Notes: generated by a model not told the origin, from the sequence alone. A DNA stretch of 35,492 nucleotides from Xanthobacteraceae bacterium (GCA_019747015.1 JAIERI010000144.1:1-35492); one strand, 5' to 3'. Counted from the stretch's first letter, positions 11,005-17,492 are shown. A program made the numbers and translations.

Positions 11005-11859
11005 TCACGTATCCAGAATCCGCACCTGATCTCCGGTCCGAACAAATTTGCCGGACTGATCGCCGAATGGCCTCGTGTTGATCGCCACCCTGTAGAAGTG
11101 GTTGAACCGGGAGCGATCGGACCATACCGGCAGGGTTCGGCCGCGAAGCTCGGTGAAGCGCCGCACGAATGTGCGATCCCCTATTCCCGAGGCCGGTTCT
11201 CTCGTCGGAACCACGCACCGCTGACACGGGTTGACGCCTTCGAACCCGGCTTCTCCGATACGAAAGCGAACCACCATCCCGGCGGCGCCGAAGAGCCGGT
11301 CCTCCCAAAAGGGCGGCACGCCATCGATCTCAATATTGGTGCGAAAGCGCTGGCGAACCTGCTCCAAGGGAAGATCGAACCACCGGGCGATCTCCTGAAG
11401 GGTCGCGACGCTGATGAGCGTCGGCCCTGGAGACGCCGTATCGTCGGGAAACCCGGCGTCGCGGTTACTTTTCAGCTCGACGGGAAATCCAAAATAACGG
11501 CTCAGCCATTGTTGGATTTCGTCCCGATCTGCGGTCAAGGAGAAGGTGCGATCGACAGGCCGCCGCTCGCCTTCGTCCTGAAACGACACTGTTTGGTTTT
11601 GCACGTCCACTGAAGATCGCAATCGGTGAACGGCCGCATGACGCTTGCCGTTGACGAATTGTCCACTCATCTCGAGCATTGCCCACGTTCTGTCGTATTC
11701 CAGCGCACCGCTTGTCAAAATCCGCGCCTCACGCAAGACAGCCGCATCCAGCGATTTGATCGGAAATATCTGGACGCGAGATACAAACGCCGTATCGACC
11801 ACTGTGCAGGCCCTCGGTTCATTTCCGGAAATGCCAAAGAATCTCCGATGACGCGCCAT
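11005..11859 (-). CDS. MOSC domain protein with MOSC N-terminal beta-barrel
   Basis: VQIFPIKSLDAAVLREARILTSGALEYDRTWAMLE (MOSC N-terminal barrel) and NPCQRCVVPTREP (putative Moco-ligand Cys motif). ATG 11859 has the SD-like GGAGA 7 nt upstream; the ORF extends to 11922. Confidence 0.85.
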   Translation of the reverse strand: MARHRRFFGISGNEPRACTVVDTAFVSRVQIFPIKSLDAAVLREARILTSGALEYDRTWAMLEMSGQFVNGKRHAAVHRLRSSVDVQNQTVSFQDEGERRPVDRTFSLTADRDEIQQWLSRYFGFPVELKSNRDAGFPDDTASPGPTLISVATLQEIARWFDLPLEQVRQRFRTNIEIDGVPPFWEDRLFGAAGMVVRFRIGEAGFEGVNPCQRCVVPTREPASGIGDRTFVRRFTELRGRTLPVWSDRSRFNHFYRVAINTRPFGDQSGKFVRTGDQVRILDT

Positions 11860-11895
11860 CGAAGATTCTCCGGGAGAGACATGCTGTAAATAGTC

Positions 11896-11917
11896 CGGGA
11901 GCCCGCAAAGGCTCCCG
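11896..11917 (-). terminator. Hairpin between APC permease gene and second MOSC gene; terminator or attenuator candidate
   Basis: CGGGAGCC-cgcaaa-GGCTCCCG, perfect 8-bp stem, no strong U-tract. Confidence 0.4.
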
Positions 11918-11932
11918 AACATTGTTGGAAAT

Positions 11933-13339
11933 TCAGGCCACCCGTTGTGCCGCAGGCAGGATGCTGCCGACGTGTTCCTTGATCATCGCTGCCGTCAGCG
12001 GTTTGCGGAACCTGACAGACAGGATCCAGACCGCCCCGATCGCTAGGTAAGCCAGGAACAGATAGGGGAAGTAAAGCACCGGGGCATCTGGGATCGGATA
12101 GACGCTGCCGACCGTCGGGATCATCAGAAGCGCCAGTGCTACCCCGCAGACGGCAAGATCGACGTTGCGAAGTTCGCCGATCTTTTTCAGATAGACCGGC
12201 GCCGCTATCGTAATCATGATGTAGGGAACGATGAAGCCGAAAGCCGCCAGCGTTCCAACATAGTTGAAGAGATCAAGCGGTTCGAGGCCGGCCACAGCCA
12301 CGCTGACTGTCGGGATGATGAACGCAATCGCCGCGAGGGTCGTCACGGCAACATGCGGGGTCGCGTTGGTTTCATGCGAGTCGGCGGTCGCTGCATGGAA
12401 AAGACCGTGCCGGCCCATGGCGAATAGCACCCGGCTTCCCGCGTTGATGCAGGAGAGGCAAAGCGCGAAGAAGCTGACCATGGCTCCGAACGACAGCGGC
12501 GCCTGAAGAATGGGAAGATGTGCGAGAGTGGCCATGACGTTGAGCGGCGCATCGATCTTGTCGAGAGTGGGATCGGAGCCGTGCGTCGCCATCACCATGA
12601 CGTAGGACACGAAAACGAAGAAGCTGCCGGAGATCACGAGACTCCAGACAACGGCTTTCGGAATCGTCACGAGCGGATCCCTCGCCTCTTCACCGAACGC
12701 CGTGCAGCACTCGAAACCGACGAGGCTGAAGATCGCGACGACGACGCCGAGACCAAGGCCCGACAGGGGCAATGTCGACACGTCGAATTGCGCATGATCG
12801 ATCTTGAAGCCATGCTGCGCCAGCGTCACGATACAGAGGATCGCGATCAACAGCATGGAGGCGCCTTCCAGGATCAGCATCAGAATTGCCGAGAGCTGGA
12901 CGTTTTTCCATGCGCAGAACCACGAGATGCCGACACAGACTGCGAAGAGAAGTGAGAACGGAAGATGGAATCCAACCATCTCGAGCAGCTTGTCGGCGAA
13001 AATCGAAAAGCCGGTGACGCCAGCCATCGAGATTCCGAGATAGGCCCAGATCAGGGACCAGCCGCCGATCGCACCGGCGGAAATTCCAAGACCGCGGCAG
13101 ATATACAGATACATCGATCCCGCGGTGGCCGAACGCCGCGCGAACTGATTGAGGTTGAAGGCGACGAAAACGAGCATGATCGTTCCGAGCGCATAGGATA
13201 ACCAGCTCCAGTCGCCGGTGTTTCCATACATGACCGGAATGATCAGCGCCGCCGTCATGGTCGGCGAGATAAGAGCAATGCCCTGAGCGAGCAGCTCCAC
13301 GAATCCTAGACAATTTTTTCTCAGTGTTACGTCGTACAT
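11933..13339 (-). CDS. APC superfamily amino acid/amine permease
   Basis: About 12 hydrophobic segments; FSLVGFECCTAFGEEARDPLVTIPKAVVWSLVISG is the APC consensus. ATG 13339 is preceded by AAGGGGAAGATCC; the ORF extends to 13417. Confidence 0.9.
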   Translation of the reverse strand: MYDVTLRKNCLGFVELLAQGIALISPTMTAALIIPVMYGNTGDWSWLSYALGTIMLVFVAFNLNQFARRSATAGSMYLYICRGLGISAGAIGGWSLIWAYLGISMAGVTGFSIFADKLLEMVGFHLPFSLLFAVCVGISWFCAWKNVQLSAILMLILEGASMLLIAILCIVTLAQHGFKIDHAQFDVSTLPLSGLGLGVVVAIFSLVGFECCTAFGEEARDPLVTIPKAVVWSLVISGSFFVFVSYVMVMATHGSDPTLDKIDAPLNVMATLAHLPILQAPLSFGAMVSFFALCLSCINAGSRVLFAMGRHGLFHAATADSHETNATPHVAVTTLAAIAFIIPTVSVAVAGLEPLDLFNYVGTLAAFGFIVPYIMITIAAPVYLKKIGELRNVDLAVCGVALALLMIPTVGSVYPIPDAPVLYFPYLFLAYLAIGAVWILSVRFRKPLTAAMIKEHVGSILPAAQRVA

Positions 13340-13437
13340 GGATCTTCCCCTTTTTGCGCAAGACTCTGTCTGTTGATCCTTGAGTGTTCCAATCCCGGCT
13401 TTTGATGATTGCATCACGCGGAAGGGGAATGAGCGGC

Positions 13438-13466
13438 CTCCAGTTTAGACGTACCTGCTGGTCCAG
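13438..13466 (-). promoter_or_regulatory. Candidate MocR operator upstream of APC permease
   Basis: Minus strand CTGGACCA-N15-CTGGAG; same octamer and 23-nt spacing as at 15477-15507. Confidence 0.55.
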
Positions 13467-13571
13467 TTGAATTGCCGCAGGCACGTGTGGCCCGCAAAAG
13501 ATTAAGCGGCAACGTGCCGGCGATGGCTGTCGCCGGGCATTTCAAGACTTCAAGCCGGCGGCAGTTCACTC

Positions 13572-14387
13572 TCAGAAATTGAGTGCGATTTCGAGAGGAC
13601 TGCCCGCGCGCAGCGTCTTTCCGATACCGCCGGCCACCGCGGCATAATTGCCGAAGCGGACACCGACTTTCGAATTTCTGTATCGGCCCAGGGTCAATAG
13701 CGGCTCCTGTCCGAACTCCGCTTTTTCCTGATCGATGGTGGTCAGATTGCATCGGTAGCAAATGTCGATGAAACGAAGCGTGACGTCGCTCGTACTTGCC
13801 GATGCAAAGTAATCTTCGCCGTAAGGATCGACACCCTCGACGACGATATTGGGACGAAAGCGATTCATCGGGACTTCGGAAACGAGGCGCTTGTTCAGAT
13901 CGTTACGCGAAGCCTCGGAGATCACCAGGATTCCGTAATTGTCGACGAAACTGGTGGGAGCCTCATCGCGCGAGGGATACTGCACGCCGCCCTTGCGCAG
14001 GAATTGAGGATCGCAGGCCACAAGGCGATAATTGCCGCCCAGATATTTGCTGAACCATGATGACGCCTCGCTGCCTGCCGAAAGCGACGACACTTTTTCA
14101 CCGAACAATTCGGCTTCGGTGCGGTCCCCGCCTTGAATCGCGTGCGGAATGACAAGCTCCGGCATGCCCGGCGCATTGAGGAGGATCTTGTCCTTGAGAG
14201 GCTTGGGCTCGACGAGCGCAAGTTTGGGCTGTTCGCGCTGGCTCACGAACACACCGTGCTCGTCAATGACCATCCAGTTCCGGTCGCCAAGAAATCCTGT
14301 CGGCGACAGCTCGATTTCCTCCACGCGGACACCTTTGCAGGACTTGACCGGATAGACATACAGATCCTTGATCTTGATCATGACCAC
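13572..14387 (-). CDS. MOSC domain protein, mARC/YcbX-like without the C-terminal 2Fe-2S domain
   Basis: IKDLYVYPVKSCKGVRVEEIELSPTGFLGDRNWMVID (barrel) and NRFRPNIVVEG...IDICYRCNLTTIDQEKAEFGQEPLLTLGRYR, which aligns by eye to the RC-x-TT-D/S...EPL-TL motif of mARC/YcbX. Confidence 0.88.
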   Translation of the reverse strand: MVMIKIKDLYVYPVKSCKGVRVEEIELSPTGFLGDRNWMVIDEHGVFVSQREQPKLALVEPKPLKDKILLNAPGMPELVIPHAIQGGDRTEAELFGEKVSSLSAGSEASSWFSKYLGGNYRLVACDPQFLRKGGVQYPSRDEAPTSFVDNYGILVISEASRNDLNKRLVSEVPMNRFRPNIVVEGVDPYGEDYFASASTSDVTLRFIDICYRCNLTTIDQEKAEFGQEPLLTLGRYRNSKVGVRFGNYAAVAGGIGKTLRAGSPLEIALNF

Positions 14388-15442
14388 ACCTCTCTTGTGT
14401 TGAGCTGAGAATCCGCCGCGGGTCTCGACGGATGAAAACAGTCGGAGAAAAAACGATCGCGACGGGCGCCCCGCGCGAGCACGGCCTTATGTGCGGCATC
14501 GACCATCGCCGGACTGCCGCAGGCATAAATGTCGAAGGCGGACAGGTCATCGAAATCCTGCAACACCGCCTCGTGGACCAGTCCGGCACGGCCGCTCCAT
14601 GCGTCGGCGCGGTCGGAGACGACGGGGATATATGCGATGCCATGCCGTTCGCTGAATTCGCGCAGTTCGCGATCGAGATAGAGACCGCTTTGCGTGCGGC
14701 TTCCCCAATACACGTAAACAGGCGCGGCAAAAGAGTCGCCCGCCAGCGATTCGAGGATCGCGCGCACCGGCGCAATGCCCGTGCCCCCCGCAATGAAAAT
14801 CGCCGGCCGGACAACGGAGGCACAGGTGAAATTGCCGAACGGCCCGGTGACACGCAGGATGTCATTTACCCTGAGATGTTCGAAGACGTGGCCGGTGAAT
14901 ACGCCTCCGGCAACACGGCCGACGTGCAGGTCAACTGTCCCATCCACGCGTGGCGCATTGGCAATGGAAAACGAGCGGTCGAAGCCGTCGGAGTGACGAA
15001 GCCCGATAAACTGGCCGGGAATGAAATCGAGCGGATCGAGCGCGGAAAAGCGCAACGTCAATCGCATCACGTGCTCGCTCTCGCGGATCAGCCCGACCAC
15101 GCGCGCGGGCACGGCCGGACGCTCGCTCGGGGGCGGTTCGGGAAGCTCAGCGACATCAAGCTGAAGATCGCCCAATGCATGGGCGCGGCAAAGAAGAGCC
15201 GTGCAACCGTCCTGCTCCGCCGCGGATAATGCCGCTACCGAGCCGGCATGAAAGAAGTCACCGCTGGAAACCGTCACCTTGCAACTGCCACACGCACCTG
15301 TGCGGCACGCACTCGGAAGCCAGATACCGGCTTTGCCCGCCGCCTCCAGGATCGTTTCGTCAGACGCAACCTCGAAAGCGGTTCCCGTGGCGAGTGTCAC
15401 CGTCGCGGAACTGATCGGACGCAAGGAAAGCTTCAGGCCCAT
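14378..15442 (-). CDS. 2Fe-2S ferredoxin / FAD-NAD(P)H oxidoreductase fusion
   Basis: CRTGACGSCKVTV...LLCRA (plant-type 2Fe-2S), FIPGQFIGLRHSDGFDRSFSIANAP (FAD), FIAGGTGIAPVRAILE (NAD(P)H); overlaps the MOSC gene by 10 nt. Confidence 0.93.
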   Translation of the reverse strand: MGLKLSLRPISSATVTLATGTAFEVASDETILEAAGKAGIWLPSACRTGACGSCKVTVSSGDFFHAGSVAALSAAEQDGCTALLCRAHALGDLQLDVAELPEPPPSERPAVPARVVGLIRESEHVMRLTLRFSALDPLDFIPGQFIGLRHSDGFDRSFSIANAPRVDGTVDLHVGRVAGGVFTGHVFEHLRVNDILRVTGPFGNFTCASVVRPAIFIAGGTGIAPVRAILESLAGDSFAAPVYVYWGSRTQSGLYLDRELREFSERHGIAYIPVVSDRADAWSGRAGLVHEAVLQDFDDLSAFDIYACGSPAMVDAAHKAVLARGARRDRFFSDCFHPSRPAADSQLNTREVWS

Positions 15443-15476
15443 GCCATCAAATTATTGGGCCGATGAACCGGGCTCA

Positions 15477-15507
15477 TGATCCAGTTTTTGGATCGAATAT
15501 GGTCCAG
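15477..15507 (-). promoter_or_regulatory. Candidate MocR operator upstream of ferredoxin reductase-MOSC operon
   Basis: Minus strand direct repeat CTGGACCA-N15-CTGGATCA, about 35 nt upstream of the start codon. Confidence 0.6.
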
Positions 15508-15550
15508 GCAAACTTTATGCGGTCGGGTGTCTTCTAGCGCTCCGTGGGGA

Positions 15551-17029
15551 CTAACCGCCGATGGCGGCTTTCATGCGCCGCACGGCCTCCCGGATGCCCT
15601 GATCGTCCAGCCCGGCGAAACCCATTCTGATCCCTCGCCTGCCGTCTTCCTTTCCGGAAAAGCTGCGGCTGGGGAGAAACGAGAGGCCGAATGCCACGGC
15701 ATTTTTCTCAAGCCGGTCCAGATAGGCTTGCGTTTCGAATGTCAGCCAGAACGCCAGCCCGCCATCGGGCATCCGGAAATCGACGACGTCACCCAGTTCC
15801 GCGCGCAATGTGACGGCGAGCTTCTCGCGGCGGCTGGAATAGACGCGCAAGGCGCGGTTGGCATGTCTGCGCACTTCACCGGCATCGACCAGTTCGGCAA
15901 CCGCCTCTTCGGTGATCTGATCGCCCTGACGGTCGATCAGCAGAATCTCCTGCGCGGCCCGGTCGATGAATTTCTCCGGCGCTGATATGTAACCTATCCT
16001 CAGGCTTGGAGACAGAAGCTTGGACATCGACCCGATATAGAGGATGGCCGGATCGAAAGACGCCAGGGGAAGCAGTGGCTGATGCGCAAAGTGAAATTCA
16101 TGGTCGTAGTCGTCCTCGATGATCGTAAAGCCGAATTGCGATGAAAGCGCGAGAAGCCGGAGCCTTCGCGCCGGGTTGAGCAGCACGGTCGTCGGAAAGT
16201 GATGATGAGGCGTCAGATAGACGACACGTACGCGGTTTCGGCGGCACAGCTTTTCAAGGTTGTCGATATCGGTTCCGCCCTCGTCGACCTTCGCGCGAAG
16301 AATGGTGGCGCCGGCAGCACGAAAAGCCTCCCGCGCCGGCGGATAGGTGAGATCGTCGACGACGACGGCATCGCCGGTCCGGATCAGGATTCTGGATGCG
16401 AGGTAGATCGCCATCTGGCTTCCGCGCGTCAGACAAACCCTCTCCGGCGTGGTCGCCAATCCGCGGTCCATATTCAGCATGCGCGATATCGCGGTCCGCA
16501 GCACCGGGGATCCGCGAGGATCACCATAGCCGAGTTTGCCCACCTTCCCCGCGAGCGACATCGCGCTGCGATAGGCCCGCGCAAAACTCTCGGCCGGAAA
16601 CAGCCGGGTGTCGGGAGTGCCGTCATCGAGCAGAACGATACCGGGCTTTGGAAAGATGACCGGCACATCGAGCGCCGCAGCAAGGCGGCTGAACTGAGGC
16701 CCTTCGCCGCGCGTCTTCGAGTTATCGAGGACGGCCCGGTTGGGCTTGCTGCGCGACTCCGGCAGCTTGGTCGAAACGAATGTCCCCTTGGTGCCGCGCG
16801 AAACCAGCCAGCCTTGTGCGATCAACTCGTCGTAAGCCACGATGACCGTTTTGCGGTTCACGCCCAGCTCTTCGGCCATCTCCCGGGATCCGGGCAGCAC
16901 CTCGCCGGGAGTGAGCCGGCCCCGCCGGATTTCAGCAATGAGGCCGTGCGCGATCTGGACGTAGACAGGGCCGGCGCCGTCTCCGCGCTTCAGACCCAGC
17001 TTGAGATGTAACTTCCATTCCCGCAGCAT
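15551..17029 (-). CDS. MocR/PdxR-type GntR regulator with aminotransferase-like domain
   Basis: N-terminal wHTH (YVQIAHGLIAEIRRGRLTPGEVLPGSREMAEELGVNRKTVIVAYDELIAQGWL) plus fold-type I aminotransferase region (YIGSMSKLLSPSLRIGYI). Confidence 0.94.
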   Translation of the reverse strand: MLREWKLHLKLGLKRGDGAGPVYVQIAHGLIAEIRRGRLTPGEVLPGSREMAEELGVNRKTVIVAYDELIAQGWLVSRGTKGTFVSTKLPESRSKPNRAVLDNSKTRGEGPQFSRLAAALDVPVIFPKPGIVLLDDGTPDTRLFPAESFARAYRSAMSLAGKVGKLGYGDPRGSPVLRTAISRMLNMDRGLATTPERVCLTRGSQMAIYLASRILIRTGDAVVVDDLTYPPAREAFRAAGATILRAKVDEGGTDIDNLEKLCRRNRVRVVYLTPHHHFPTTVLLNPARRLRLLALSSQFGFTIIEDDYDHEFHFAHQPLLPLASFDPAILYIGSMSKLLSPSLRIGYISAPEKFIDRAAQEILLIDRQGDQITEEAVAELVDAGEVRRHANRALRVYSSRREKLAVTLRAELGDVVDFRMPDGGLAFWLTFETQAYLDRLEKNAVAFGLSFLPSRSFSGKEDGRRGIRMGFAGLDDQGIREAVRRMKAAIGG

Positions 17030-17060
17030 GGCCGGACAACTCAGTGGCCCATACCATAGG

Positions 17061-17087
17061 CTAGATTAGTCACACCCAATGGTCCAG
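17061..17087 (-). promoter_or_regulatory. Candidate MocR autoregulatory site
   Basis: Minus strand CTGGACCA with a degenerate CTAG half-site at the same 23-nt spacing; an additional TGGACCA lies at 17107-17113 (+). Confidence 0.5.
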
Positions 17088-17164
17088 AACTTTCCCTCTG
17101 CCTGTTTGGACCAAACCCGGCTTGCGAGACGCAGGCCTGTTTAAAGGCAATGCCCATATCCTGA

Positions 17165-17427: not shown

Positions 17428-17492
17428 GTGAATCATGTCAATGAGCCATGACGGAAAATCATGCCGGCAAGCCATGACAGTGAGTCATGACA
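17428..17492. repeat. 13-bp tandem repeat, five copies, upstream of RND efflux genes
   Basis: Units gtgaatCATGtca / atgagcCATGacg / gaaaatCATGccg / gcaagcCATGaca / gtgagtCATGaca; CATG at 17434, 17447, 17460, 17473 and 17486, exactly 13 nt apart. Confidence 0.8.

Follow-up and report, generated by a model that had tools for sequence, protein, structure and literature searches.

Two MOSC proteins, a ferredoxin-type reductase, and an amino acid permease are encoded beside a gene for a MocR-type regulator in a Xanthobacteraceae bacterium. What ties these genes together? The stretch of DNA analyzed here, referred to as the window, is 35,492 nucleotides long. The initial annotation noted that one and the same box, CTGGACCA, precedes three transcription units of this cluster, each time with a second half-site 23 nt downstream, and proposed that the three sites are operators of one MocR regulon that includes mocR itself. 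Our own reading is close to this: the three sites are very probably operators of the cluster's own MocR, and mocR, fdr-mosc1, and perm-mosc2 are predicted to form one regulon. Binding, the direction of control (activation or repression), the ligand, and a role in import and reduction are what we infer from the sequence.

The genes of the cluster

The regulator is 492 amino acids long and contains both PF00392 and PF00155, the architecture of the MocR/GabR subfamily. It matches GabR structures over its full length (closest solved structure, 4n0b/4mgr), and by analogy with GabR the motifs SMSK, EDDYDHEF, and GIRMGFA would serve as the PLP-lysine and ligand-carboxylate arginine motifs. Among 80 relatives, S[ML]SK is found in 79 and EDDYDHEF, which was one of the search seeds, in all 80; the motif NRKT of the helix-turn-helix is likewise invariant (80 of 80). 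The host genome (2.67 Mb in 253 contigs) yields no other full-length MocR protein at the search threshold, though another could be missing, because the genome is 85.5% complete.

The features of the cluster are collected in Table 1. The division into three units, each preceded by a site, holds up, but the units themselves are refined to mocR, fdr-mosc1, and perm-mosc2, since the second MOSC gene comes after the permease. COG2258 is a MOSC family. The permease most likely starts at the ATG at 13342, with a GTG at 13417 as the alternative. The cluster (11005-17029) is patchy in its distribution: in 28 genomes of the same genus, the best match to mosc1 is a distant MOSC protein (E 1e-4), whereas Rhodopseudomonas and a Xanthobacteraceae metagenome-assembled genome do have close orthologs. 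Horizontal gain or repeated loss is the likely cause. Outside the cluster, positions 17434-17491 hold imperfect direct repeats built on CCATGAC/TCATGAC, in three 19-nt copies with spacings of 26 and 13. They lie immediately upstream of an RND-type efflux operon (17619 onward) and may be the operator of another regulator.

Table 1. Genes, operator boxes, and putative promoter elements of the MocR cluster (positions in the window)
Feature	Position	Strand	Comment
mosc2: MOSC_N + MOSC	11005..11922	-	10 bp after perm; predicted same operon
perm: APC-type amino acid permease	11933..13342	-	PF00324, E 7e-24
Weak -10-like AATCAT, perm	13405..13410	-	56 nt past box A start; putative
Box B AAACTGGAG, permease operator	13438..13446	-	CTGG begins 23 nt after box A
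Box A CTGGACCA, permease operator	13459..13466	-	Rank 1 of 70,882, methylotroph-only matrix
mosc1: MOSC_N + MOSC (YcbX/mARC-like)	13572..14387	-	Overlaps fdr end; predicted same operon
fdr: 2Fe-2S / FAD / NAD(P)H reductase	14378..15442	-	Fer2, FAD_binding_6, NAD_binding_1
-10-like AATAAT, fdr	15451..15456	-	51 nt past box A start (ortholog peak 53); putative
Degenerate candidate box C CCGGTTCA, fdr, at +36	15464..15471	-	Weak score, rank 1247; orthologs: CTGGTCCA
Box B AAACTGGATCA, fdr operator	15477..15487	-	CTGG begins 23 nt after box A
Box A CTGGACCA, fdr operator	15500..15507	-	Rank 2 of 70,882, methylotroph-only matrix
mocR: GntR-type winged helix + aminotransferase-fold (MocR/GabR) regulator	15551..17029	-	Domains, GabR structure match, NRKT in HTH
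-10-like TATGGT, mocR	17053..17058	-	29 nt past box A start; putative
Degenerate box B CTAG, mocR operator	17061..17064	-	23 nt after box A; alone ranks 277 of 70,882
Box A CTGGACCA, mocR operator	17080..17087	-	A+B rank 3 of 70,882, methylotroph matrix
Palindromic 13-nt box GTTTGGACCAAAC	17104..17116		27 nt upstream of mocR box A

Rarity of the paired boxes

How unusual are these boxes? The window has three copies of CTGGACCA, all on the minus strand, against 0.61 expected, and 3 of 100 shuffles reach that number. The initial annotation placed all three copies correctly, and the window holds no other. The second half-sites are also where it put them, with CTGGAGG from 13443, CTGGATCA from 15484, and CTAG from 17064. 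The pair with up to two mismatches is found four times in the window against 2.0 expected and is not enriched there, so that window statistics alone are no proof. The weight of the evidence comes instead from rarity in the whole genome and from conservation at orthologous loci.

In the host genome, the single box has 100 copies. The exact pair has only two, those upstream of the permease and fdr; when one mismatch is allowed there are nine pairs, the three window sites among them. The fuller pattern YTGGWCCM-N12-AAAYTGGA finds only the permease and fdr sites with no mismatch, nothing further with one, and four sites elsewhere with two. Across 60 related genomes (roughly 240 Mb), the exact form CTGGACCA-N15-CTGGA appears only 8 times. 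The genome-wide count suggested by the initial annotation thus bears it out that the paired form is uncommon elsewhere.

Conservation beside MocR relatives

We compared 80 loci encoding MocR relatives that are 46 to 60% identical. A TGGWCC box followed at a spacing of 23 by a TGGW box lies upstream of mocR at 37 of them, whereas random segments of the same loci would give 1.9, and no other spacing is found at more than 8. With a slightly broader pattern, the pair stands upstream or just 3' of mocR at 61 of the 80 loci and 22 times elsewhere in 968 kb. Phylogenetic footprinting, another of the checks that had been proposed, finds the pair conserved at orthologous promoters. Orthologous mocR genes of alpha-, beta-, and gammaproteobacteria have the pair next to them with the 23-nt period kept, and at several loci the site is directly 3' of mocR and ahead of the next gene, which is the fdr layout in the window. 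The sites thus consist of at least two boxes, set about whole helical turns apart and conserved within an orthologous group, as expected of MocR operators.

Which genes do these operators face? In two Rhodopseudomonas loci (L004 and L005), mocR is divergent from fdr-mosc1. A Xanthobacteraceae metagenome-assembled genome (L011) has mocR, fdr, mosc1, and perm together, with a site before the permease. In nine loci (L006, L008, L009, L021, L035, L044, L048, L072, and L079), mocR and the permease gene diverge; a permease 60 to 70% identical to that of the window lies beside mocR in these loci as well as in L007 and L011. The intergenic regions concerned carry CTGGACCA, then at 23 nt AAACTGGA(T/G)G, in many cases followed by CTGGTCCA at +36. 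In every locus inspected, boxes A and B are ordered toward the target gene. For the exact cluster, the footprint comes from L004, L005, L011, and partly L007, because mosc1 orthologs are rare: no further close mosc1 cluster turned up in the 28 same-genus genomes or in the class and phylum samples. As a separate observation, L008, L021, L035, L044, L048, and L072 often carry a small M24-fold protein (about 230 amino acids) plus a ferredoxin or ferredoxin reductase, and some permease-type loci also have a class-I glutamine amidotransferase, making up a conserved, uncharacterized gene set near the operator.

The operator core can be written as YTGGWCCM-N12-AAAYTGGA(T/G)G and is frequently joined by a third box, inverted, at +36. 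The initial annotation spoke of direct repeats. That is right for the two head-to-tail boxes, which resemble published MocR operators (PMC5320631; PMC4494728), but it is incomplete, as many orthologs add the inverted box.

Recognition by weight matrices

Can loci with other target genes pick out the sites? A matrix built from 13 methylotroph loci with unrelated targets (MoxR, DUF58, and VWA proteins) puts the permease, fdr, and mocR sites at ranks 1, 2, and 3 of 70,882 positions with scores of 32.7, 28.7, and 12.2, while in 60 shuffles the best score averages 7.0 and never exceeds 17.5; these figures should be read with the knowledge that training sites were picked with the box seen in the window and that some loci are close kin. 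With a matrix from the permease-type loci, the permease site again comes first and the fdr site second, and no shuffle scores as high. With the sphingomonad matrix, the window sites do not stand out; box B upstream of sphingomonad mocR genes is mostly TTGGTGCT. The 23-nt pair was imposed in choosing these clade-wise sets. In the first training set, neither the 23-nt spacing nor the AAA before box B was imposed, and box B emerged as AAACTGGA although it had not been used in picking those sites. The fdr and permease sites are very well supported because their scores exceed the shuffle maxima, and the mocR site is supported by its rank and position, not by its score alone.

Promoter geometry and a proposed mechanism

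In 20 ortholog loci, -10-like hexamers peak at about +53 from box A, a position that suggests activation of the targets. A scan with the sigma-70 consensus finds no promoter at the operators, and the assignment of -10 elements rests on positional enrichment. We propose that MocR would bind as a head-to-tail dimer to the head-to-tail boxes CTGGACCA and CTGGA[T/G], whose 23-nt spacing is about two helical turns. Upstream of fdr-mosc1 and perm-mosc2, the boxes would lie some 50 to 55 nt before the -10-like element, with box B beside the -35 region and near -40, where an activator would touch polymerase. MocR would most likely activate both units in response to an amino-acid-like ligand held at its PLP-bearing, aminotransferase-like domain. 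At mocR itself the sole -10-like hexamer is at +29, so the operator would overlie the core promoter, an arrangement that fits self-repression by the degenerate copy.

Alternative readings

Could the boxes simply be chance matches in a GC-rich genome? The single box is common enough, and pairs with two mismatches do not exceed expectation in the window, but the exact pair is found at this locus only, and both spacing and sequence are kept at orthologous loci far beyond random segments of those loci. The conservation results refute chance for the fdr and permease sites, and we give the idea practically no credence. A different regulator with a similar box might also bind here, for example a TauR-type MocR, whose published box in the text of PMC5320631 is CTGGACYTAA and shares CTGGAC with our half-site. 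The search of the 85.5%-complete genome, at its threshold, found no second full-length MocR, and the operator tracks the window's MocR family across classes despite differing target genes. This makes another regulator very improbable, and the cluster's own MocR remains the preferred candidate for all three sites. How that MocR acts on its targets is a further question. It might mainly repress them, with the inverted box at +36, between -35 and -10, blocking polymerase, and with a switch between direct and inverted boxes of the kind proposed for PdxR (PMC5320631). Many orthologs have a clear box C (L006, L008, L009, L060, and the permease site of L011), but in the window the fdr copy is weak and the permease site has no recognizable one, and methylotroph operators lack the box. 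Repression is a minority option in our estimate, and we continue to favor activation of fdr-mosc1 and perm-mosc2.

What about the autoregulation that the initial annotation predicted? In its favor, the mocR site has a perfect box A close to the mocR start (51 to 58 nt upstream), and a matrix drawn from distant loci puts the full site third in the window. Against it, this is clearly the weakest site, box B is degenerate, and the site would overlie the mocR promoter. It would then be conceivable, though on balance unlikely, that genuine MocR operators exist only at fdr and the permease, that the mocR box is a chance match or a relic, and that mocR is not autoregulated. CTAG in place of CTGG, the poor rank of this box B by itself, a total score inside the range of the shuffle maxima, and six pairs with one mismatch elsewhere in the genome all speak for such a view; the orientation of the site also differs from that in orthologs, where mocR and its target share a divergent operator. 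On the other hand, none of 152,438 positions in the host genome around 30 unrelated CTGGACCA boxes reaches 12.2, and upstream of the mocR box A there is a further TGGWCCA box, a palindromic one. We therefore regard mocR autoregulation as plausible, but weaker than the prediction for the other two units. The palindrome, GTTTGGACCAAAC, is missing from the initial annotation, and its spacing does not fit the 23-nt code.

What the regulon may do

YcbX/mARC-type MOSC proteins are described as reducing N-hydroxylated compounds. The host genome has MoaC, so the molybdenum cofactor can probably be made. In L011, the gene after the permease encodes a single protein with MOSC, FAD, NAD, and 2Fe-2S domains, a fusion that supports the pairing of MOSC protein and reductase; fdr could supply electrons to the MOSC proteins. 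The regulon would import an amino compound, and the MOSC proteins, fed by the ferredoxin-type reductase, would reduce this compound or its N-oxygenated derivative. That an N-oxygenated amino compound is taken up and then reduced can be put forward as a sensible guess, not as more than that.

The putative targets vary among the loci: MOSC and reductase genes, the APC permease with an M24 protein, MoxR/DUF58/VWA genes in methylotrophs, and TonB receptors and amidohydrolases in sphingomonads. One might speculate that this is a cross-class proteobacterial MocR group with a fixed 23-nt two-box code and changing targets, serving here an undescribed import of an N-oxygenated amino compound and its reduction by MOSC proteins and ferredoxin reductase, a broad proposal that we hold as distinctly doubtful. 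In 15 loci of Methylophilaceae and similar bacteria (L036, L041, L042, L045-L047, L050, L051, L055, L058, L065, L067, L068, L071, and L073), the same 23-nt operator, with the -10-like hexamer TACATT at about +53, stands before a MoxR ATPase/DUF58/VWA/TPR operon. This operon resembles mxaRSACKL, of methanol dehydrogenase maturation; the likeness makes it a candidate identity, and the literature searched contained no account of MocR control of mxaRSACKL-like genes.

Why should such a regulon matter? Orphan genes (two MOSC proteins, a reductase, and a permease) are brought together as a single predicted regulon whose operator can be tested, and the group-specific consensus offers a way to search many proteobacteria for targets of related MocR regulators. 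Little is understood of MOSC enzymes, so that a dedicated reductase and a dedicated transporter, both under the same regulator, would help in finding a physiological substrate.

Comparison with known systems

MocR regulators combine a GntR-type helix-turn-helix with an aminotransferase-like domain, and according to the main text of the regulon survey by Suvorova and Rodionov (2016; PMC5320631), their operators have two to four boxes at helical-turn spacing, most of which have TGT or TGG as their core. The commonest structure given there is two direct boxes plus one inverted box, which the inverted +36 box of the orthologs matches; this box is degenerate at fdr and absent at the permease. The same text lists a COG2258 protein and transporters in PdxR regulons and oxidoreductases in other MocR regulons. 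A regulon of fdr, MOSC, and APC-permease genes is not described in that main text, and the group may stand in its supplementary tables. A literature search with the box sequence returned only unrelated items among the matches listed.

Which characterized regulator comes closest? TauR of Rhodobacter capsulatus shares the direct repeats and a similar box (as given in the text of PMC5320631 and PMC4494728), but the cluster in the window has no taurine genes, its second box is AAACTGGA(T/G)G, and its targets are unrelated. Membership in the TauR group was not accepted, on account of the targets (fdr, MOSC, and APC permease) and of a box A, CTGGACCA, that is followed by variable bases; a paper on Sinorhizobium meliloti taurine promoters gives no operator. 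PdxR was considered as well. With the NCBIfam PdxR model (NF052282; cut-off, 320), the window MocR reaches 328.7, but L004, a close relative with the same targets, reaches 317.8 and a methylotroph relative with unrelated targets 383.4, so that the model does not separate the group. A search for pdxST (PF01680) found nothing in the 85.5%-complete genome, the cluster carries no pdx gene, and PdxR membership was not accepted either. GabR of Bacillus subtilis, the closest solved full-length structure, is a head-to-tail dimer on direct repeats (per the text of PMC5320631) and differs in its box, ATACCA (per that of PMC4494728), and in having GABA genes as targets. MocR regulators with direct-repeat operators are thus a known kind, and the predicted regulon in the window is a new, conventional example of it.
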